Assembly (NCBI GenBank): GCA_902624075.1
Contig: CACNWC010000009.1
Span: 1-38,388 of the forward strand
Direction of reading: 5' to 3'
DNA from: an uncultured Pelagibacteraceae bacterium
GTDB lineage: Bacteria > Pseudomonadota > Alphaproteobacteria > Pelagibacterales > Pelagibacteraceae
Length of the DNA stretch: 38,388 nucleotides
The notes beneath the pieces are model-generated. The model was not told the origin of the DNA. It saw only the letters and a program-made list of their open reading frames with translations, and made no database searches. Shown piece after piece: positions 3,515 through 20,606 of the stretch. Position 1 is the stretch's first letter. Each line of letters opens with the position of its first letter. The position numbers were made by a program, and so were the translations under genes.

Positions 3515-4835
3515 CTGCTTTAAGATTTCCTTTGGAAGATTTTTTCAAAGCTTGATCTAAATCCTCAATAATATCATCTACATGTTCTATACCAATACAA
3601 AGTCTAACGTAACTTTGAGTAACACCTGATGCTGCTAGCTCTTTTTCATTTAATTGACTATGCGTTGTGCTAGCTGGATGAATCGCTAAACTTCTAACAT
3701 CACCAATATTAGCAACATGATAAATCATTTTTAAAGACTCAATAAACTTTTTGCCAGCTTCAATTCCACCTTTAAGCTCAATACCTACCATTGGACCATT
3801 TCCACCTTTAAGATATTTTTTTGCTCTATCAGCGATAGATTTGTCATGTTCAGTTGAATAAATAACTTTAGTTACTTCTTTATGTTTTTTTAGAAAATCA
3901 ACAACATATTCAGCATTTGCACAATGCTGTTTCATTCTAAGGGCAACAGTTTCAAGACCTTGAATAATTGCAAAAGCATTATCGGGTGCAAGAGCAGAAC
4001 CTAAATCTCTCAATAAACAAACTCTTGCTCTAACTGCAAAAGGTACATTAGCTCCAGTTAATTCAGGTACAGCCTTACCCCAAATTACACCTCCATAACT
4101 TGCATCTGGTTCATTAAATAATGGTTGTCTTTTAGGATCTGCTGTCCAATCAAAATTACCACTATCAACAATACTTCCTGCCACAGCAGTGCCATGACCA
4201 CCAATATATTTTGTTAAAGAATGAATTACTACAGCAGCACCATGTTCAATAGGTTTACAAATGACTGGCGCGGCAGTGTTATCCATTATTAGTGGTATAT
4301 TATATTTTTTGCCTATATTTGAAACTTCCTTAATAGGAAAAACTCTTAAATAAGGATTGGGCAAAGTTTCACCATAAAATGCTCTTGTTTTATCATCTAT
4401 TAATTTTTCAAAATTATTTGGATCAGCTGGATCTGCATATCTAATTTCAATACCGAGTTTACTTAATGTATGTGTAAACAAAGATACTGTACCACCATAA
4501 AGATCGGTAGAGCTAACAATGTTATCACCAGATTGTGCAACATTCAAAATCGCAAAAGTAGATGCAGTTTGACCTGAGGAAACTGTTAAACAAGATAGAC
4601 CACCTTCTAAAGCTGCAATTCTTTTTTCTAGAACATCATTAGTTGGATTCATAATTCTTGTGTAAATATTTCCAAATTCTTTTAAGGCAAATAAATTTGC
4701 AGCGTGCTCTGTGCTTTTAAATTGATAAGAAGTTGTTCTATATACTGGAACTGCTACAGCGTTTGTTGTTGGATCACTTCTATAATCGCCTCCGTGGATG
4801 GCTACTGTTTCTGGATTATTTCTTTTTTTTGTCAT
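3507..4835 (-). CDS. metY: O-acetylhomoserine sulfhydrylase (PLP-dependent)
   Basis: Forms homocysteine from O-acetylhomoserine and sulfide in methionine synthesis. The 442-residue product belongs to the Cys/Met metabolism PLP family: Y-R-T-T-S-Y near 32-37, S-S-G-Q-T-A at 86-91, PLP-contacting D185, and the PLP Lys K209 in H-S-L-T-K-Y. The length and the roughly 40-residue insertion before the C-terminal domain fit MetY rather than cystathionine synthase. An AAGGAG ribosome-binding site lies four bases before the ATG. Tandem SAM riboswitches in the leader indicate feedback control by S-adenosylmethionine. Confidence 0.94.
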   Translation of the reverse strand: MTKKRNNPETVAIHGGDYRSDPTTNAVAVPVYRTTSYQFKSTEHAANLFALKEFGNIYTRIMNPTNDVLEKRIAALEGGLSCLTVSSGQTASTFAILNVAQSGDNIVSSTDLYGGTVSLFTHTLSKLGIEIRYADPADPNNFEKLIDDKTRAFYGETLPNPYLRVFPIKEVSNIGKKYNIPLIMDNTAAPVICKPIEHGAAVVIHSLTKYIGGHGTAVAGSIVDSGNFDWTADPKRQPLFNEPDASYGGVIWGKAVPELTGANVPFAVRARVCLLRDLGSALAPDNAFAIIQGLETVALRMKQHCANAEYVVDFLKKHKEVTKVIYSTEHDKSIADRAKKYLKGGNGPMVGIELKGGIEAGKKFIESLKMIYHVANIGDVRSLAIHPASTTHSQLNEKELAASGVTQSYVRLCIGIEHVDDIIEDLDQALKKSSKGNLKAVS

Positions 4836-11589: not shown

Positions 11590-11595
11590 TGATTT

Positions 11596-11772
11596 TTATC
11601 GTGGAATTAATAAAATTATGTAACTTACAAAGAAAATAATAGCCATTATAGAAAGAAATATCGTATTGAAGCTCTTTCCAGTGTTTCTGTATTGAATAAA
11701 AGTTAATATAACGAAACCAATCGAACTAATTAAAAACCATACCGCTGGAATTTCTCCATCTATTGAACCCAT
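11596..11772 (-). CDS. Small two-helix membrane protein (58 residues)
   Basis: An open frame ending six bases before the ogt start on the same strand. It encodes a short acidic N terminus, a hydrophobic stretch at about 11-27, a short polar loop (Q-Y-R-N-T-G-K-S), and a second hydrophobic stretch at about 37-56 ending in P-R. Hydrophobicity, spacing to ogt and lack of an overlapping frame support a real gene. No family is recognised. It is the first gene of a two-gene leftward unit, divergent from the recombinase gene. Confidence 0.6.
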   Translation of the reverse strand: MGSIDGEIPAVWFLISSIGFVILTFIQYRNTGKSFNTIFLSIMAIIFFVSYIILLIPR

Positions 11773-11791
11773 AATTTTTTAATTTAAACTA

Positions 11792-11820
11792 TTGACATTA
11801 AAAATCACCTATTATATAAT
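11792..11820 (+). promoter_or_regulatory. Consensus sigma70 promoter of the recombinase gene
   Basis: TTGACA (11792-11797) and TATAAT (11815-11820), both perfect consensus hexamers, are separated by exactly 17 bases. Transcription would start near 11827, inside the inverted repeat at 11819-11847, giving a leader of about 25 bases before the ATG at 11852. The -10 region ATTATATAAT is itself palindromic. This is the strongest promoter match seen in the window. Confidence 0.75.
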
Positions 11821-11847
11821 TTCCGATAATTAATGGTTATCGGAAAT
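11819..11847. repeat. Perfect 11-7-11 inverted repeat: candidate recombination core or operator
   Basis: ATTTCCGATAA (11819-11829) and its exact reverse complement (11837-11847) flank a 7-base asymmetric centre TTAATGG. The left arm shares two bases with the -10 hexamer, and the right arm ends four bases before the recombinase ATG. The layout equals that of tyrosine-recombinase core sites (dif is 11-6-11) and lies directly before such a gene. It could equally be an autoregulatory operator. No second copy was seen in the window. Confidence 0.7.
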
Positions 11848-11851
11848 AAAT

Positions 11852-12757
11852 ATGAATAATTTAATTACTGATGTTAAAAGCTTAGAAATAGAAACTTTAA
11901 AAAATTTAAAGAACTCTAAATCTAATAACACATTAAGAGCTTATCAATCTGATTTTAAAGACTTTTCATTATTTTGTAGTCAAAATGGTTTCTCATCAAT
12001 ACCAACTCAGCCTAAAATTATTGCGCTTTATATTACACACCTTTCTAAATCATCAAAATTTAGCACTCTAAAAAGAAGAATAGCTTCAATAAGTGTTTTA
12101 CATAAATTAAAAGGGCATTATCTGGATACTAAACACCCAATAATAATGGAGAACTTACACGGTATTAAAAGAACAATAGGATCAAGACAAAAAGCAAAAA
12201 AACCTATATTAATCAATGATTTAAGACTAATAATTAAAGCAATAGATAAACAAAAAATTAGGGATAAAGCATTAATCTTAATTGGATTTTCAGGTGGTTT
12301 TAGAAGGTCAGAATTAGTTAATATTGATTATGATGATATTGAATTCGTGCCAGAAGGTGTAAAAATTCTTATTAAAAGATCAAAAACAGATCAATCAGGA
12401 GAAGGAAGTGTAAAGGCAATCCCCTACTTTGATAATCAAGAATTTTGTCCAGTAGTAGCTCTCAAAAATTTTATTAATATAAAATTTTCTAAGATTAATG
12501 AAGGAAAAGTTTTCGATATTTCGGACAAATCAGTAGCCCTTATCATTAAAAAATATGCTGAAAAAGCTGGTTTAGATTCTTCTAAATATGCAGGACATAG
12601 CTTAAGATCTGGTTTTGCAACCACAGCAGCAGAATTTGGAGCTGAAGAAAGAAATATAATGGCAATGACAGGTCATAAAACTACACAAATGGTTAGAAGA
12701 TATATTCAAGAGGCAAATCTATTTAAAAATAACGCGTTAAATAAGATAAAAATATGA
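11852..12757 (+). CDS. Tyrosine recombinase / phage-type integrase
   Basis: DNA-breaking and rejoining enzyme of 301 residues. Residues 10-90 are the N-terminal SAM-like core-binding domain and 115-295 the catalytic domain. The full catalytic set is present: R151 (F-R-R-S-E-L), K178 (R-S-K-T-D), H249 and R252 (H-S-L-R), H275 (G-H-K) and nucleophile Y284. The size and simple two-domain layout resemble XerC/D-like integrases rather than larger phage integrases with an arm-binding domain. It has a consensus promoter and a palindromic site just upstream, and the transaldolase gene starts 12 bases downstream. It appears intact, not decayed. Confidence 0.92.
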   Translation: MNNLITDVKSLEIETLKNLKNSKSNNTLRAYQSDFKDFSLFCSQNGFSSIPTQPKIIALYITHLSKSSKFSTLKRRIASISVLHKLKGHYLDTKHPIIMENLHGIKRTIGSRQKAKKPILINDLRLIIKAIDKQKIRDKALILIGFSGGFRRSELVNIDYDDIEFVPEGVKILIKRSKTDQSGEGSVKAIPYFDNQEFCPVVALKNFINIKFSKINEGKVFDISDKSVALIIKKYAEKAGLDSSKYAGHSLRSGFATTAAEFGAEERNIMAMTGHKTTQMVRRYIQEANLFKNNALNKIKI

Positions 12758-12769
12758 TAATCTTAAAAA

Positions 12770-13462
12770 ATGAAAATATTTTGTGATAGCGCAGACTATA
12801 AAAATTTTTTAAAATACAAAAAAGATAAAATAGTTAAAGGTTTTACTACTAATCCAAGTTTAATGAGACAATCTGGGGCGAAGAGTTATAAATCATATTC
12901 AATCAAATTATTAAAAAATAGTAATCTTAAACCTGTTTCATTAGAAGTCTTCTCTGACAACATTAATGAAATGTATGTTCAAGGAAAAATTATTAATAAT
13001 TGGGCAAAAAATATTTATGTAAAAATACCCGTAGTAAATACCAAAGGTAAATTTACAGGAAAAACAATAAAAAAATTAAGTGACGAGAAAGTCAAATTAA
13101 ATATTACCGCTGTTTATACTTTTGAACAAGTTAAGAATATTACAAAGCAACTTAATAAAAAAACTAAAGCAATAATTTCAATTTTTGCAGGTAGAATGGG
13201 AGATCAATTGAAAAATCCTATTCCTATTTTTAGAAAATCTTTAAGATTTACGAATAAATATAAAAATATTGAAATTTTATGGGCAAGTACTAGAGAAACT
13301 TACAATTATATAGAAGCAAAAAATTTAGGTTGTCAAATTATAACAATGCCACCAAAAATTATAGAACAGATAAAAAAATCAAATAAATCATTTAATAGAT
13401 TAACCATTGATACAGTTAAAGGTTTTTACAAAGATGCAAAAAAAAGTAGATTTAAGGTTTAA
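12770..13462 (+). CDS. Transaldolase-family protein (short TalC type)
   Basis: Class I aldolase barrel of the transaldolase/fructose-6-phosphate aldolase family, 230 residues. Seen: F-C-D-S-A-D at 4-9, T-T-N-P-S-L near 26-31, the Schiff-base Lys85 in Y-V-K-I-P-V, the N-I-T-A-V-Y-T segment, and the S-I-F-A-G-R-M-G-D loop. The length fits the short subfamily. Transaldolase would shuffle sugar phosphates of the pentose phosphate pathway; position beside a sugar-polymer cluster may suggest a dedicated aldol reaction, but this is not shown. It follows the recombinase by 12 bases. Confidence 0.85.
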   Translation: MKIFCDSADYKNFLKYKKDKIVKGFTTNPSLMRQSGAKSYKSYSIKLLKNSNLKPVSLEVFSDNINEMYVQGKIINNWAKNIYVKIPVVNTKGKFTGKTIKKLSDEKVKLNITAVYTFEQVKNITKQLNKKTKAIISIFAGRMGDQLKNPIPIFRKSLRFTNKYKNIEILWASTRETYNYIEAKNLGCQIITMPPKIIEQIKKSNKSFNRLTIDTVKGFYKDAKKSRFKV

Positions 13463-13468
13463 TATTTA

Positions 13469-14233
13469 GTGAAAGAATTTTCTTTTTGTGTATCAATGTC
13501 AACGATTCCATCCAGGTTATACAATATATCTGAGATAATTGACAATATTAACAAGCAAACTTTAAGACCAGATAAAATATTTTTAAATATTCCTTATAGA
13601 TATAAAAGATTTCCAAATCAAAAAATAAACTTAGATGATTTAAATAATCTTAAACAAGAAAATTTAGAAATAATTAGATGTGAAGATTATGGACCGGGTA
13701 CTAAAATAATGGGTTCTATAGATAAAGTTAGAAATTTCGATTGTGTTATTTTGTTAGACGATGATCATATTTATCATAAAAATATGTGTGAGTTTTTTTT
13801 ACAAGCATTCAAAAAAGAACAAATTAATTATAGTTTTTATCTAAATAAAATATTTAAGATTAAAATGGGACAGTGTTCCGATGGTTTTTTAATGAATACT
13901 AAATTACTCGATAAAATTGAAAATTTTTATGAAATATTTGTTAAAAATAATCAAAATATGTTTTTAGATGATGATTTATGGCTAGCAATTTATCTACAAA
14001 AAGAAAAAAAATCATCTATTCAAAATCTTATGAAGGAGTTTAAAAGAAAATTTAATAAGGATTTAATATATGAGCAAAACTCTAATAGTATAAAAGATAG
14101 TTTACATCTAACTGTTCATAAAGACGGAATTATTCTAAATAGAAGAAAAATTCATAAGATTGAATATGTAAAATATTTGATTAAATCTTATTTTTTAAAA
14201 TTTAAGAAAAATTCTAACTGCCCTACTCACTAA
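13469..14233 (+). CDS. Putative glycosyltransferase with a DDD motif (GT-A type)
   Basis: A 254-residue protein starting at GTG (13469), six bases after the transaldolase stop. The N terminus C-V-S-M-S-T-I-P-S-R-L is a first Rossmann-like strand of GT-A proteins, so the GTG start is preferred over the ATG nine codons later. I-L-L-D-D-D-H (D97-D99) is the expected metal and nucleotide-sugar site. A later D-D-D-L-W segment resembles the acceptor region. Probably adds sugar to a surface polymer. Its end overlaps the convergent glycosyltransferase by 11 bases. Confidence 0.65.
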   Translation: MKEFSFCVSMSTIPSRLYNISEIIDNINKQTLRPDKIFLNIPYRYKRFPNQKINLDDLNNLKQENLEIIRCEDYGPGTKIMGSIDKVRNFDCVILLDDDHIYHKNMCEFFLQAFKKEQINYSFYLNKIFKIKMGQCSDGFLMNTKLLDKIENFYEIFVKNNQNMFLDDDLWLAIYLQKEKKSSIQNLMKEFKRKFNKDLIYEQNSNSIKDSLHLTVHKDGIILNRRKIHKIEYVKYLIKSYFLKFKKNSNCPTH

Positions 14234-15233
14234 TTTTACTCAATATGCTTAACAAATCTTTTTTAACATTATTGAAGTTTCTTAAATTTTTCATTTCTAT
14301 CAAATTTTTTTTTAAATTTAAGTAGAGATCATCATCGTTTAAAATTTTTACTGAATAATTAACAAATTCTTTCATATTTTTAGCTATAAAACCGGTTTTT
14401 TCATGTTTTACTCTCTCATATAAACTACCATAACCCATTGTAACGATTGGAATACATAGTTCTTTTGCTTCCTCTGCAGCTAAGCAAAAAACTTCAGATT
14501 TATGACCAGGAGTAATGAATAGCCTTGATTTGACTAAATCTTGTATTAGCAATTTTTTATTACCTTTTTTACGTAAAAAAACACCATCCTTTTTGTTAAT
14601 CTCAGTTAATTTAAATGGTGGATTTATAAATAATTTTGCTTTTGAATTATTTTTCTTTATTTCGTGCCATGAGTTTAGCAAAAAATCTAAATTCCTATCA
14701 GATTTTGTTGTAAAAATAGCTGTTGGTAATGGAATATAATTTAAATCTACATTATGATTCAAAAAATCATCATCTACAGCAATTTTAAGAATTTTTTTTC
14801 CATAAAACGATGTAAAAAAGCTCCTATTTTTATAGTGGTAATCACCTTCCAGAATCATAATTGGTTTATACTTGAAAAAAGGAATTAGTTGTTTTTTTCT
14901 GATAAATTTTTCAATGTTTTGAACACTATGAGACCATAAAAAATTACTTTTAGAATTTAATTTATAAAAAAGATTGGCATCTGACATTGAGATTACGTGA
15001 TCGGGTTTATCATTTATGTCTATTTGATTTATATTATTCCAATAAACTTTATTTATAATTTTTTGTTTATTCGTATTATTAAATACTTTAATAATTAAAT
15101 CTTCATCTTTTGCTAATGCATTTGTAATATTTATTAAAATCTTTTCTGATCCGCCTATTTTATCACTATCAAGATCTTCTCCATTATAATTATATGAATT
15201 TTCAATAAAGTAGATTTTAGTTTTATTTTTCAT
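14223..15233 (-). CDS. Glycosyltransferase, GT-B fold, group 1 (GT4-like)
   Basis: A 336-residue protein. Its N-terminal half has a G-G-S-E-K segment near residue 28, like the glycine-rich loop of GT-B enzymes. The C-terminal half has S-R-L-F-I-T-P-G-H-K-S-E-V-F-C-L-A-A-E-E-A, the donor-binding E-x7-E region, followed by I-P-I-V-T-M-G-Y-G. This places it in the glycosyltransferase group 1 superfamily; donor and acceptor are unknown. It is the last gene of the leftward polysaccharide unit, three bases after the preceding gene. Confidence 0.75.
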   Translation of the reverse strand: MKNKTKIYFIENSYNYNGEDLDSDKIGGSEKILINITNALAKDEDLIIKVFNNTNKQKIINKVYWNNINQIDINDKPDHVISMSDANLFYKLNSKSNFLWSHSVQNIEKFIRKKQLIPFFKYKPIMILEGDYHYKNRSFFTSFYGKKILKIAVDDDFLNHNVDLNYIPLPTAIFTTKSDRNLDFLLNSWHEIKKNNSKAKLFINPPFKLTEINKKDGVFLRKKGNKKLLIQDLVKSRLFITPGHKSEVFCLAAEEAKELCIPIVTMGYGSLYERVKHEKTGFIAKNMKEFVNYSVKILNDDDLYLNLKKNLIEMKNLRNFNNVKKDLLSILSKISE

Positions 15234-15236
15234 TAA

Positions 15237-16241
15237 TTATAAGCGTTTTTCAATTTTTTCTATAGATCTATTAAAGTCTTTTTTTAACATTGTGTATTCA
15301 TAATTATTAGGTGGGAACCATTCTTTACAGGAAATAATTTGACTTATAAAATCTTTATTATCTTTTAAATTAAAATGCATTAATGCTAATACAGATTTTT
15401 TCAAATAATAACCCATGTGGGTTATTATCCCCTCTGGAGAAATTATTTTAGAAGATCTTTTCACTGCGTCAAATAAATTATTACCATCAATGTCTTTTAG
15501 AAAAAAAATGTTTTTATCGTTAATTGTATTTATTTGATGATGTTCAAAGTTGTAATTATTATATTTATTTAAGAAATAATTATTAATTTTCTTATTAAAA
15601 AGCTCAGATGAAAACATAACATTATCGTATTTTGTACTCAAATAATTAAGTAATTCAGATACTTTATCCAGATCCCATTCTAACAATTTATTGAAGAAAG
15701 CATGTTTGTAATGAAAAAAAACATACTTTTTTGGATAATCAAATTTATGGGTAATGTTTGATTCATAATTTAAGTTGTTAGTTTCAGAAGTAAACTCAAT
15801 TAAGTTTTCCTGAATAATGTAAGATGATTTTCTTTTTTTTATTTTTTCACGGTCTAAAACTGAATATCTAAAAAGATATTTTAATAAAAAATCATTTGGT
15901 CTACTTCTAAAAGATTTTATTGTTATTGCATAAAATTTTATATTTCTAAAAAATAAAGGTAGATAATAATAAAAATTTTTTGGAGTAAGAATGTAAATAG
16001 TGTCTATCTTATTTGTTAAAATATAAAAAAAGATTTTCATTTTCTCTATAAATGCAAGATTCATAGAAACTATCTTTTTTTGTATACCTGGAAATAAAAA
16101 ATTAAATTTATGATTAATATTTGATAAGAAAATTAAAATATTTTGATCTTTGTGTTTATTGATAATTCTATTAATAGCATTTAATGAAACAAATAAATCT
16201 CCTGTTCTGTCATTTTTGAGAATAAGGACTTTTTTTGTCAT
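15237..16241 (-). CDS. Putative GT9-like (heptosyltransferase-like) glycosyltransferase
   Basis: A 334-residue protein opening with V-L-I-L-K-N-D-R-T-G-D-L-F-V-S-L, the start motif of ADP-heptose:LPS heptosyltransferases (GT9). Near the C terminus S-P-E-G-I-I-T-H-M-G occupies the place of the donor-site motif S-x-D-T/S-G-x-x-H. The middle is highly divergent and Lys/Asn/Phe-rich. A role in lipopolysaccharide core or O-antigen assembly is an inference. Its start overlaps the gmd stop by 4 bases (ATGA). Confidence 0.6.
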   Translation of the reverse strand: MTKKVLILKNDRTGDLFVSLNAINRIINKHKDQNILIFLSNINHKFNFLFPGIQKKIVSMNLAFIEKMKIFFYILTNKIDTIYILTPKNFYYYLPLFFRNIKFYAITIKSFRSRPNDFLLKYLFRYSVLDREKIKKRKSSYIIQENLIEFTSETNNLNYESNITHKFDYPKKYVFFHYKHAFFNKLLEWDLDKVSELLNYLSTKYDNVMFSSELFNKKINNYFLNKYNNYNFEHHQINTINDKNIFFLKDIDGNNLFDAVKRSSKIISPEGIITHMGYYLKKSVLALMHFNLKDNKDFISQIISCKEWFPPNNYEYTMLKKDFNRSIEKIEKRL

Positions 16242-17197
16242 TTAATTAATTTTAAATCAGAGTCTACCATTTCGTTAACTAAAGATCTAAAACTAATTTT
16301 AGGTTTCCATTTAAGAATTTTTATTGCTTTTTTAAAATCAGCTTTAAGAATGATATTGTCATTAGGTCTGAAAAATTTTTTATCTATCTTAATATAATTT
16401 CGATAATCTTTATTGACATGTTCAAAAGCAAATTTTAAAAATTCTTTTACTGTATGAGTTTTACCTGTACCAATAACAAAATCTTGAGGTTTTTTTAGTT
16501 GTAACATTTTCCACATTGCAAACACATAATCCTCTGCATGACCCCAATCTCTTTGTGCATTTATGTTGCCTAAAGTTATTTTTTTTAGTTTATTTTTTTG
16601 AATTTTAGCAACACTAGATGTAATTTTCCTAGTTATAAAATTAATGCTCCTTCTAGGTGATTCATGATTAAATAAAATTCCAGAACAAGCAAATAAATTG
16701 TAGGCTTCTCTATAATTTTTAGTAAGATAAAAACCTGCTATTTTTGAAACTCCATAAGCAGATCTAGGATTAAAATTTGTGTTCTCGTTTTGGGGATATT
16801 TAGGAGAATTTCCAAATAATTCTGATGATGCAGCAAAATAAAAACGAGTTTTTGGTGAAAATTCTTTTATCGCCGAAAGTATATAATGAGTACCATTAAT
16901 ATTTGGATTTAATTTAAAAAATTCATCCTCGAATTTATAATTGATAAAACTTTGTGCTGCTAAATGATAAAATTCTTTTGGTTTAAAATTTTTAATTAAG
17001 GATTTAATCTTAGAAAAATTGTTAATATCAATCTTTTTAAGAAAAATATTTTTTTTTATTTTTTTAAGATTATCTAAATTAATTCTTTTTTTAGGATTAG
17101 TGATACCAATTACCTTGTATTTTTTTTTTAATAATAATTCAGCTAAATAAGAACCATCTTGACCGCTAATACCAGTTATAATAGCTATTTTTGCCAT
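16238..17197 (-). CDS. gmd: GDP-mannose 4,6-dehydratase
   Basis: Converts GDP-mannose to GDP-4-keto-6-deoxymannose, precursor of fucose, rhamnose and perosamine. The 319-residue SDR-fold product has G-I-S-G-Q-D-G-S-Y-L-A-E (9-20), S-S-E-L-F-G (124-129, Ser in place of the usual catalytic Thr), Y-x3-K (Y148, K152), and G-N-x-x-A-Q-R-D-W-G-H-A-E-D-Y near 202-217, the clearest GMD signature. It is slightly shorter than typical (about 325-370). No fcl, rmd or per partner lies in the window. It overlaps the preceding gene by 13 bases and the next by 4. Confidence 0.88.
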   Translation of the reverse strand: MAKIAIITGISGQDGSYLAELLLKKKYKVIGITNPKKRINLDNLKKIKKNIFLKKIDINNFSKIKSLIKNFKPKEFYHLAAQSFINYKFEDEFFKLNPNINGTHYILSAIKEFSPKTRFYFAASSELFGNSPKYPQNENTNFNPRSAYGVSKIAGFYLTKNYREAYNLFACSGILFNHESPRRSINFITRKITSSVAKIQKNKLKKITLGNINAQRDWGHAEDYVFAMWKMLQLKKPQDFVIGTGKTHTVKEFLKFAFEHVNKDYRNYIKIDKKFFRPNDNIILKADFKKAIKILKWKPKISFRSLVNEMVDSDLKLIK

Positions 17198-19290
17198 AAA
17201 AACTTTTTAGAATTATTAATACCTAATGTTTTATTGATAATAAAATCTGCAACTATTGAAGAATTAAAATGTTTAAAGTAAAATTTTTTACCATTCTTTG
17301 CAATTTTAACTCTATTCATCTTATCTCTTTTGAATTTATTCAATTTATAACTTAAATCATCTAAATTTTTATAAAAAACAATTTCTTTGTTTGAAAAAAA
17401 ATCACTTAAACAAGTTTTTTCATCAATAAAGGTTAATAACCCATTACCAACTAGTTGAGCAATCCTATCACTACTATAATATTTGATTGGTTTACCTCTG
17501 CTTAGATTCAATCCCATAGAAGAGTTTGCTAAATTAATTAGGAAATTGTTAGACCATATAGGTTGAATATTATTCATTCCATAAATATCAAATTTAATAT
17601 TAGGATTTTTTTTGATGAGTCTATTTACAAAAAATTCTCTATTATCTAATTTTCCTTTTTTTAATTCTCCCCTATGAACACCATGACTCATTGCAAAAAA
17701 AAGATCATTTTCACAATTTTTGTTAAAATTTTCTAAAACTTCGAAAGATAAATCACAAGGATTTGGTATATAAAAGCTATTTTTTATCTTAAAATCAATT
17801 GAATTAGGGTCAGTAGTTAAAAATGTAGAATCAATAAATAAATTTTTGTCAAGAACTCTTCTTTTATTACTCGTGTAATCAGGCCCATATCGAGATAAAG
17901 GGTCTAAAAACCATTGACCAATCATTACTTTATCTTTTTTAAAATCGTCAAGAGTTTCTATTGAGACATTATCAGCGTGACCCAATATAATTAAATCTGG
18001 TTTAAAATTTTTATAATTGTTTTTGATAGATTTTTGTAATGATTTTGATCCCGCTAAATCATTTAATCTCTTATTGTTGTGAAGTATATCCCTATCACTA
18101 ACAGTAAGAACGTTATGCCCCAGCCTTACAAAGCCATTATTTATTCTTCTACCAGTATTATAATGTAACCTTCCATCAAAACGATAATTAAAATTTGTTA
18201 TGTGCATTATCTTTAATATCTTTTTATTATTAATATTTATTATTTTTATAAAATTTTGATTTCTAAGATTATCAATAATTTTCGATACATATTTATGAGT
18301 AAGATAAAAATTTTTATAATTTTGTTTTTGTTTTTTAACTAATCGTTTTTTATCTAAAATAAGATTGGATATTTCTTGAAAAAGATTCTCTTCATCTAAA
18401 GATTTAAGAATTATTGCAGATTTGGAAGTTTCTGGTAAACCACCCTTATTACTAATAATTACAGCTGATCCTCTGCTAGCAGCTTCTAAACTTGTTCTAC
18501 CAAATGGCTCTTCCCATCTCGAAGAAACTACAGATATACTAACTTTTTTTAAAAAATTTAGAATAAATTCATTATTTTTAAAACCTAAATTTATAAGATT
18601 CTTATGATTAAAAAACATTTTTTCTCTTGGTTCATCTCCAATGACGTAAGCTTTCCAATCTTTGTGTTTATCTAAAATTTTAATAATTGTATTTCCAAAA
18701 ATATCAAAACCTTTAGCTTTATTTAATTTACCAATAAATGTAATAATCTTTTTTTTATTGTTAAAACTAATTGGAATTTTATCTGTAGATTGATAACAAA
18801 TAATTGATTTGTTTGATATTAATTCTTTTTCATTTAAATCTAAAAAAAAACGACTCCTTGACCATTTACTATTAAAAATAATCTTATCAACATTATTTAT
18901 AATAAATCTTCTATCTGATAAACTTTTTGATCCATTCATTGTCAAAGGATCGTTATGAAAATATAAAAAAATTTTTTTTTTATAATTAGGTTTAATTTGT
19001 TTAATATAATTTGGCCTATTATGTATTTCCAATATATCAGTTTTTTTAAAATTTGGGTGTTCTATGAAAGATTTAACATATTCTCTATTTGAACTTTGTA
19101 AAAAATTTTTGACAGGTTTTAAATTAATGTAGTTTTTACTTAGAAAATCTTTTTTATTCGTTGATCCATAAACAGTAATATTCTTTTTAAACTTACTAAC
19201 ATTAGATGTGTCATTAACGAATAAAGAAACTGCTCCAGCAATATCTTTAGAATAATTTTCTTTATATGGAAGCAGTATAGATATTTTCAT
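17185..19290 (-). CDS. Two-domain glycosyltransferase (GT4-like plus CgeB-like)
   Basis: A 701-residue fusion of two GT-B enzymes. Residues 1-350 are a GT4-like transferase with F-I-G-K-L-N-K-A-K-G near 190 and S-S-R-W-E-E-P-F-G-R-T-S-L-E-A near 257-272 carrying the donor-site glutamates. A second module starts at about M362 (M-H-I-T-N-F) and has a late Y-Y-S-S-D-R-I-A-Q-L-V-G-N-G segment (about 602-616), resembling the CgeB/Glyco_trans_1_2 family. No stop separates the two. It may add two successive sugars. The start overlaps the GIY-YIG gene by 4 bases. Confidence 0.8.
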   Translation of the reverse strand: MKISILLPYKENYSKDIAGAVSLFVNDTSNVSKFKKNITVYGSTNKKDFLSKNYINLKPVKNFLQSSNREYVKSFIEHPNFKKTDILEIHNRPNYIKQIKPNYKKKIFLYFHNDPLTMNGSKSLSDRRFIINNVDKIIFNSKWSRSRFFLDLNEKELISNKSIICYQSTDKIPISFNNKKKIITFIGKLNKAKGFDIFGNTIIKILDKHKDWKAYVIGDEPREKMFFNHKNLINLGFKNNEFILNFLKKVSISVVSSRWEEPFGRTSLEAASRGSAVIISNKGGLPETSKSAIILKSLDEENLFQEISNLILDKKRLVKKQKQNYKNFYLTHKYVSKIIDNLRNQNFIKIININNKKILKIMHITNFNYRFDGRLHYNTGRRINNGFVRLGHNVLTVSDRDILHNNKRLNDLAGSKSLQKSIKNNYKNFKPDLIILGHADNVSIETLDDFKKDKVMIGQWFLDPLSRYGPDYTSNKRRVLDKNLFIDSTFLTTDPNSIDFKIKNSFYIPNPCDLSFEVLENFNKNCENDLFFAMSHGVHRGELKKGKLDNREFFVNRLIKKNPNIKFDIYGMNNIQPIWSNNFLINLANSSMGLNLSRGKPIKYYSSDRIAQLVGNGLLTFIDEKTCLSDFFSNKEIVFYKNLDDLSYKLNKFKRDKMNRVKIAKNGKKFYFKHFNSSIVADFIINKTLGINNSKKFLWQK

Positions 19291-19664: not shown

Positions 19665-20606
19665 TTAAATCTTTTGTTTCATTTTAATTATCTTTTTTAA
19701 ACCAGTAGATTTATGGGTAATTAGTGTTTCTGATAAAAATTCATTATCAATAATTTTTATTCCTGATACCAAATCACCAGAAGTAATACCAGTGGCACAA
19801 AATATGGAGTCACCCGAAACTACTTCATTTAATTCATATTTTTTATCAAAATCTTTTATACCCATTTTTACTGCTCGTTCTTTATCAACATCAGTTTTAA
19901 ACAAAAATCTTCCTTGAAAAAAACAATTATAAGAATCTAAAGCTGAGGCTGCTAATACTCCTTCTGGACCACCCCCAATACCCAAAAAAAGATCAACTTT
20001 ATATTTTTTATCAGTAACCAAAAGTGCACCAGAAACATCTCCATCTGTAATTAATTTTAGATTTACTTTAAGTTTTTTTAATTCTTCAATAATTTTTTTA
20101 TGTCTAGGTCGATCTAAAATACACACAGTTATATCTGTAGGTTTTTTATTTTTATATTCACATAAGTTATTAATATTGTCTTTGACAGTAAAATCCAAAT
20201 CTATCACCCCTTTTTCTAAGACATTAGCTGATATCTTGTCCATATAAGTTTCTGGTGCATTTAACAAATTTGATTTTCCTGCTATAGCAATTACTGACAA
20301 CGCACCAGGTAGATTATTTGCCGCAAAATTTGTCCCTTCCAAAGGATCAACTGCTATATCTATATTAGGTCCACTCATTGATCCTAATTTTTCGCCTATA
20401 TATAGCATTGGTGCTTCATCTAATTCTCCCTCTCCAATTACAATTTCACCCGTCATATCAATTTTATTCAATTCAGTTCTCATTGTATCAACAGCTGCTT
20501 TATCAGCAGATACTTTATCTTTTTTTCCAACCAAATATGAAGATGCTAAGGCTGCCCTACTTGATACATTTAATATTATATCTTCAAATTTTTTGTCTAG
20601 TATCAC
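19665..20606 (-). CDS. glpX: Class II fructose-1,6-bisphosphatase
   Basis: Hydrolyses fructose-1,6-bisphosphate to fructose-6-phosphate in gluconeogenesis. The 313-residue product has G-E-G-E-L-D-E-A-P (58-66), D-P-L-E-G-T (87-92), the D-R-P-R-H segment, and G-I-G-G-G-P-E-G-V-L-A-A, all typical of GlpX. It starts at GTG, overlapping the TAG stop of the upstream transporter gene by one base, so translation is probably coupled. In many alphaproteobacteria glpX follows hom; here hom lies more than 11 kb away on the other strand. Confidence 0.95.
   Translation of the reverse strand: MILDKKFEDIILNVSSRAALASSYLVGKKDKVSADKAAVDTMRTELNKIDMTGEIVIGEGELDEAPMLYIGEKLGSMSGPNIDIAVDPLEGTNFAANNLPGALSVIAIAGKSNLLNAPETYMDKISANVLEKGVIDLDFTVKDNINNLCEYKNKKPTDITVCILDRPRHKKIIEELKKLKVNLKLITDGDVSGALLVTDKKYKVDLFLGIGGGPEGVLAASALDSYNCFFQGRFLFKTDVDKERAVKMGIKDFDKKYELNEVVSGDSIFCATGITSGDLVSGIKIIDNEFLSETLITHKSTGLKKIIKMKQKI

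Follow-up and report, generated by a model that had tools for sequence, protein, structure and literature searches.

A palindrome at positions 11819-11847 of the window (the whole stretch of 38,388 nt analysed here) is very probably the dif site of the SAR11 family, with the gene adjoining it encoding the one recombinase that acts there. This assignment, drawn from sequence comparison, is supported by the linkage of site and gene, arm types that follow the clades of the recombinase, a single exact core and an antipodal place on the chromosome, and further by the lack of XerC/XerD-like matches, the presence of FtsK-gamma and copies of the site in phages. In the mechanism proposed, each of the two near-identical 11-bp arms would be occupied by one recombinase monomer. 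Two sister sites brought into synapsis at the terminus of replication would then undergo strand exchange in the 7-nt centre. A chromosome dimer would in this way be converted to monomers at division, probably with the help of FtsK. Binding, cleavage, dimer resolution, FtsK dependence and autorepression of the gene (described below) are what we infer for this system.

SAR11 bacteria are among the most abundant on Earth. In the available text of a 2009 survey, Pelagibacter is given as being without a dif/Xer system, which was taken as a sign that streamlining of a genome can do away with it (PMC2731167). There is no occurrence of Pelagibacter in the available parts of a review of Xer systems (PMC5357621) or of the paper on XerL of the Legionellales (PMC9765430), and among the matches listed from the open-licence PMC literature, no title or abstract was found to report the site in SAR11 or Pelagibacter. 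A named site and enzyme make the dif/Xer question in SAR11 directly testable. If the assignment is true, the system would represent a new single-recombinase type beside XerS, XerH, XerA and XerL, one with its dif inside the promoter of the recombinase.

The site, promoter and gene all lie on the forward strand. The dif-like core consists of a left arm (ATTTCCGATAA, 11819..11829) and a right arm (TTATCGGAAAT, 11837..11847), both of the A type defined below, around an asymmetric centre of 7 nt (TTAATGG, 11830..11836), the presumed region of strand exchange. The arms were found to be 100% complementary, which bears out the perfect 11-7-11 inverted repeat described in a sequence-only reading of this DNA. 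Only 4 bp separate the end of this 29-bp palindrome from the ORF of a single tyrosine recombinase of 301 aa (11852..12757, with its ATG at 11852), in which a core-binding and a catalytic domain were identified (Pfam Phage_integrase, 2.5e-19; Phage_int_SAM_1, 6.1e-6). Upstream, the -35 hexamer TTGACA (11792..11797) and the -10 hexamer TATAAT (11815..11820) form a recombinase promoter with a 17-nt spacer and a consensus score of 12/12. Bases 11819-11820 belong both to the end of the -10 hexamer and to the start of the left arm, so that the flawless promoter sharing two bases with the repeat, also claimed in that reading, was recovered as described.

Three perfect 11-bp inverted repeats with a spacer of 3-20 were found within the window, against an average of 1.75 (range 0-7) over 20 first-order Markov simulations, and the palindrome alone is therefore not beyond chance at 26% G+C. 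For the intergenic region (11590-11851) and spacers of 5-9, a perfect repeat occurred in 6 of 2000 simulated sequences, the test being post hoc. The G+C content of the palindrome (28%) is not lower than that of the window (26%), low G+C being listed for dif in the available part of the 2009 survey (PMC2731167). As judged from the sequences compared, the significance of the palindrome comes from its conservation and not from the bare sequence. The arm pattern was matched a second time in the window, more weakly, at approximately 19725-19755 (TTTCTGATAA-AAATTCA-TTATCAATAA), within the ORF at 19665-20606; this match may be due to chance.

Protein search identified a match to the recombinase in 108 of 151 genomes of the genus. 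DNA upstream of homologues was collected for 176 loci, representing 150 distinct proteins once duplicates, truncated genes and loci with fewer than 75 upstream bases had been left out, and the palindromic site was found in front of the recombinase in 150/150. As part of this set had been found through the site pattern itself, homologues obtained by protein search only were counted apart (136 loci, from which 114 distinct proteins were kept). The site was upstream of all 114, confirming its proposed conservation with the recombinase in relatives.

Two arm types were distinguished among these loci, namely A (TTTCCGATAA) and B (TACTAAYGATAA or TACTATTGATAA). The right arm was always of the same type as the left, with 130 A/A and 20 B/B sites among the 150 loci, and 101 A/A, 13 B/B and no mixed sites among the 114 of the protein-search-only set. 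In the latter set the inner GATAA of the left arm was invariant and the centre read TTAATGG in 98 loci and TTAATTG in 12, the other 4 having a near variant. Mean information over the same 114 loci was 1.89 bits for the centre, 1.66 for the arms, 1.09 for the upstream flank and 0.86 for the downstream flank, the asymmetric centre thus being the best-conserved part of the site. Arm type was also found to track the recombinase tree (117 rows), with one change required for B and two for A, compared to means of 18.7 (B) and 24.5 (A) for shuffled arm types, none of 500 shuffles being as low; this is a quick tree in which the B branch has a support of only 58 and long branches occur among distant relatives and L145.

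The architecture of the promoter was likewise shared. A TTGACn hexamer with a -10-like hexamer was present in 147 of the 150 loci, the spacer was 17 nt in 138, and in 144 the -10 extended 1-4 nt into the 11-bp left arm. From this conserved overlap, autorepression is plausible: recombinase bound to the site would mask the last bases of the -10 together with the point where transcription is expected to begin, and would thereby hold down its own promoter. The overlap in 144 of 150 loci would equally be explained if the palindrome were a mere operator for repression by the recombinase or another factor, with recombination occurring elsewhere or not at all. This is considered improbable, as an operator leaves unexplained the antipodal position of the site, the fact that its asymmetric centre is better conserved than its arms and the phage copies near terL on DNA with no recombinase homologue. 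Two observations lead us to read the site as a core and not only as an operator, namely its persistence opposite the origin and its occurrence in phage DNA that lacks the gene.

The joint switch of both arms from A to B, with pairing kept, could also be accounted for by an RNA hairpin in the 5' leader of the gene. However, transcription is expected to start approximately 7 nt past the -10, leaving most of the left arm untranscribed, and the phage copies are not upstream of this gene; a hairpin is accordingly a scarcely credible explanation of the repeat.

Among 198 genomes of at least 85% completeness, the exact core GATAATTAATNRTTATC was found as exactly one copy in 162 and as two in none. 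The remaining 36 lacked an exact match; some of these have a variant centre, as is the case for genome G172, and others may lack the gene. Since the exact core is never present twice in a genome, the obvious partner for exchange is the sister chromosome's own copy. As the two copies are identical, recombination between them regenerates an unchanged promoter and would not switch expression. This bears on the proposal of the sequence-only reading that strand exchange at the site would remove or replace the promoter, making the enzyme switch its own expression. Recombination that inverts, removes or replaces the promoter, turning the recombinase on or off, would agree with a core-site geometry that overlaps the promoter. 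It is nevertheless extremely unlikely, given that no second site was met that could act as a partner in these 198 genomes, that the promoter was directed into the gene in 147 of the 150 loci and that exchange of identical sister sites gives the promoter back. A phase-variable promoter was dropped as a candidate for want of a partner site. Of the reading as a whole, the resemblance to a core site was strengthened by the clade-following arms, the conserved centre, the terminus position and the phage copies, and the promoter switching was abandoned.

The chromosomal position of the proposed dif site was determined in 11 single-contig genomes belonging to four genera. The parS motif, searched with at most one mismatch, was found at one place in each of the 11 (in G193 as a pair of matches separated by 332 bp), with neighbouring genes read as thdF, gidA, gidB, parA and parB. 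In all 11 genomes the distance from parS to the site was 0.462-0.4996 of the chromosome (mean 0.478), and in G153 and G176 the site was only 0.5 kb off the exact antipode of parS. These genomes are related, and their site positions are thus not independent of one another. The site and parAB had the same orientation in 5 genomes and opposite orientations in 6; this variation indicates inversion of the terminus without loss of the antipodal place.

GC skew computed by codon position mainly reflected gene direction, and parS was for this reason combined with whole-region GC skew and coding-strand bias. GC skew was examined in four genomes using 20 samples of 20 kb each. The change point lay at most 0.05 from the site in three of them (0.47, 0.48 and 0.50, against sites at 0.47, 0.527 and 0.495, in G155, G193 and G190, respectively) and 0.084 from it in G012 (0.61 against 0.526); GC skew is weak in these genomes. 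Coding-strand change points in the four genomes resembled those of GC skew. The KOPS motif, which we take to be GGGNAGGG, occurred too seldom in the samples for its polarity to be read.

Among 118 family genomes of at least 85% completeness, Phage_integrase (PF00589) matches numbered one in 86, two or three in 16 and none in 16, and the universality of the system consequently rests on the 11 single-contig genomes. One of the genomes with no tyrosine recombinase match is 99% complete in about 20 contigs. When the XerD model was searched against 18 genomes of the family, the top match in every case was the present recombinase (65-87 bits), and no XerC/XerD-like match was found with this model in any of the 18. 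FtsK_gamma was matched in all 18 of these genomes, with an in-frame stop inside the match in G154 and G168.

In the sister family (f2, e.g. G459-G470), two strong XerD-model matches per genome, of 307-325 and 244-257 bits, were kept in 11 of the 11 genomes tested; the cut-off of the model (329.6 bits) was reached by none of the matches, those of the sister family included. This retention of two matches suggests that XerC/XerD was probably replaced within the order, and a sister family with an XerC/XerD-like pair makes the replacement placeable on the tree. An order-wide search with the present recombinase gave weak matches (E 8e-4 to 1e-9) in 24 sister-family genomes, with two each in 15.

The recombinase consists of the core-binding and catalytic domains only. 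Residues R151, K178, H249, R252, H275 and Y284, which are presumably catalytic, were invariant among 42 sequences. The protein scored below the cut-offs of the XerD (70.4 against 329.6 bits), XerC (65.3 against 335.15 bits), XerS equivalog (58.1 against 267 bits) and archaeal XerA models. Its top sequence matches in the PDB were XerA-like and XerD entries, followed by Cre, with XerH outside the 21 sequences matched by phmmer at E <= 0.01. A Foldseek search using a predicted model of moderate quality (pLDDT 76, pTM 0.56) returned Cre as the best fold match (TM approximately 0.5, 15-19% identity), followed by XerA and lambda Int; XerH appeared further down as a weak match at ranks 49-50. Cre/loxP is like the SAR11 system in pairing a simple two-domain recombinase with symmetric arms and an asymmetric centre. 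The loxP site is borne by phage P1 and has a 13-8-13 layout, whereas that of the SAR11 site is 11-7-11.

Scores so far below the XerC and XerD cut-offs would also suit an ordinary integrase of a mobile element, with the palindrome as its att core. The distribution of relatives agrees with this, being sporadic outside the family: 25 of 288 genomes sampled from the class gave a match at E <= 1e-15, and 21 of these lie outside the family, with 25-42% identity. A Xer-like palindrome was present within 350 bases upstream in 8 of 22 outside-family loci, compared to a simulated expectation of 0.59 (maximum 4 in 100 runs), and had a 7-nt centre in 6, compared to 0.12 (maximum 2); an example is ACTTCCGATAA-AATTCAC-TTATCGGAACC. 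Such 7-nt-centred palindromes were observed upstream of relatives' genes in other Alphaproteobacteria at L199, L200, L202, L203, L209 and L218. For 14 non-SAR11 genomes with a relative, the matches listed included no further copy sharing the centre.

Against a mobile-element integrase, the gene is usually single and present in most well-assembled genomes of the family, its flanking genes are conserved within the genus with no second copy of the site, and its antipodal place is fixed in 11 of 11 single-contig genomes. This explanation is therefore regarded as very improbable for the SAR11 system as it now stands. An integrase origin followed by later domestication is, however, compatible with the dif assignment, and the palindromes of distant relatives suggest that an old recombinase-site module was taken over by SAR11 for chromosome maintenance. 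The flanking genes are largely common within the genus, and a different left flank was found in the four genomes from other genera. The stretch at 12770-17185 of the window, which separates the recombinase from a 701-aa gene (17185-19290), varies in content by genome, making it a variable spot at the terminus; here it is occupied by a transaldolase-like gene (TIGR02134, 256 bits against a cut-off of 282) and others.

Comparison with described systems showed features of the single-recombinase dif/Xer kind, namely a lone recombinase, a site at the terminus that is non-coding and about 28-31 bp long, adjacency of site and gene, and FtsK-gamma. Of these, adjacency to the recombinase gene, found for 114 of 114 distinct homologues, is a trait of XerS and XerH and not of XerL. 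XerS/difSL of streptococci and lactococci and XerH/difH of Helicobacter and Campylobacter, as described in the available parts of two papers (PMC5357621, PMC2731167), are like the SAR11 system in having one recombinase in place of an XerC/XerD pair and a site at the terminus adjoining the recombinase gene. Differences were identified in that the SAR11 recombinase is shorter, at 301 aa (up to about 325 aa for its relatives) compared to 354-362 aa, and in that difSL has an 11-nt centre with unequal arms, while the SAR11 site has a 7-nt centre with near-perfect inverted-repeat arms. Unlike in XerS/difSL and XerH/difH, the SAR11 site overlaps the promoter of its own gene.

According to the available text on XerL/dif of the Legionellales, that system shares with SAR11 a single recombinase that homology searches had overlooked, inverted repeats that are long and uninterrupted, and mimicry of the site by a mobile element; xerL of L. 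pneumophila is, by this description, more than 400 kb from dif, whereas the SAR11 site abuts its gene (PMC9765430). The dif of XerC/XerD systems in Proteobacteria resembles the SAR11 site in being opposite the origin, non-coding and palindromic with inner ATAA/TTAT, and differs in having an 11-6-11 layout with unlike XerC and XerD arms, as opposed to 11-7-11 with like arms. The SAR11 right arm TTATCGGAAAT differs at 2 of 11 places from the Rickettsia/Ehrlichia dif arm TTATGGAAAAT given in the available part of the survey (PMC2731167).

Among viral contigs, no A-type 21-mer with the TTAATGG centre was found, with the B-type pattern matched by 3 contigs and the core pattern by 25. Twenty of these 25 were found to carry a two-armed site by arm scan (L191 at 4149-4180, L192, L193, L220-L224, L226-L234, L236, L238 and L240). 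Contigs L225 and L237, with a single good arm, failed the scan and were dropped from the two-armed set; L235, L239 and L241 were set aside as chance matches, being one sequence that lies within long ORFs in two of them. A second site was present within 90 bp in 10 of the 20 two-armed contigs, mostly as a pair of A type and B type. When L225 and L237 are counted with the 20 two-armed contigs, a TerL of the HTVC106P/HTVC010P kind was encoded on 15 of the 22; its start lay 0.33-0.46 kb from the site on 13 of them and at a distance of about 1.1-1.2 kb on L224 and L230. No recombinase homologue was found on any of the 25 core-pattern contigs, which are partial. The 20 two-armed sites resemble in this the dif mimics of IMEX, elements that exploit Xer and have no integrase of their own.

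Ten of the 14 Pelagibacter-phage records among 15 listed by TerL were also examined, the stretches of HTVC100P and HTVC035P having been chosen through a site match. The best site exceeded those of all 100 simulated sequences in HTVC106P, HTVC100P, HTVC035P, HTVC024P, HTVC034P and Greip, and was attained by 1/100 for Skadi-4 and 3/100 for Lederberg. For HTVC010P (12/100) and HTVC204P (8/100) the best site was within the chance range of the simulated sequences, as it was for a control phage of OM43 (37/100). Sites were located upstream of terL in HTVC106P (L251, 1508-1570), HTVC100P (L252, 1505-1565), HTVC035P (L253, 1504-1563) and Greip (L259, about 1553), and the centres of the cultured-phage sites are unlike that of the host.

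The complete records of HTVC106P, HTVC100P and Greip, in which most genes are hypothetical, contain no annotated integrase. Repressor- or regulator-like genes are annotated in all three; a LexA-like repressor was noted in HTVC106P (L349, 6107-6340) and DnaA-like products in HTVC100P (L350, 7099-7659) and Greip (L351, 29919-30440). A plasmid-like or repressed phage state would fit with a Xer-type site. No prophage was found at the site in the host genomes, TerL being present in 7 of 397 and adjoining the site in none, and no arm-type site was identified in the 7 loci around these TerL genes. Among the matches listed from the open-licence PMC literature, no title or abstract was found to report a pelagiphage attP or dif site.

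Use of the host site by these phages is likely. Such use would offer a candidate route by which pelagiphages with no integrase persist in their hosts. This bears on the puzzle set out in the available text of one study, in which infections suggest lysogeny, chronic infection or host bistability with lysogeny genes lacking (PMC8163748). A wider scenario may tentatively be put forward, at somewhat less than even confidence. SAR11 would have lost XerC/XerD and gained instead an integrase-type recombinase with a core site in its own promoter that became the sole dif of the chromosome, expression perhaps being responsive to occupancy of the site. Phages of the HTVC106P/HTVC010P type, which are described as being without genes for lysogeny and have A- and B-type copies near terL that are often in tandem, would draw on the host enzyme for integration or for resolving their own multimers.

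With regard to expression, a gene designated xerD (SAR11_1019) in strain HTCC1062, which is presumably the present recombinase gene, appears together with recA in the available part of a sulfur-limitation response table, with values above 1 for both (PMC5069961). Up-regulation of both xerD and recA in light is described in the available text of another study (PMC3090418).
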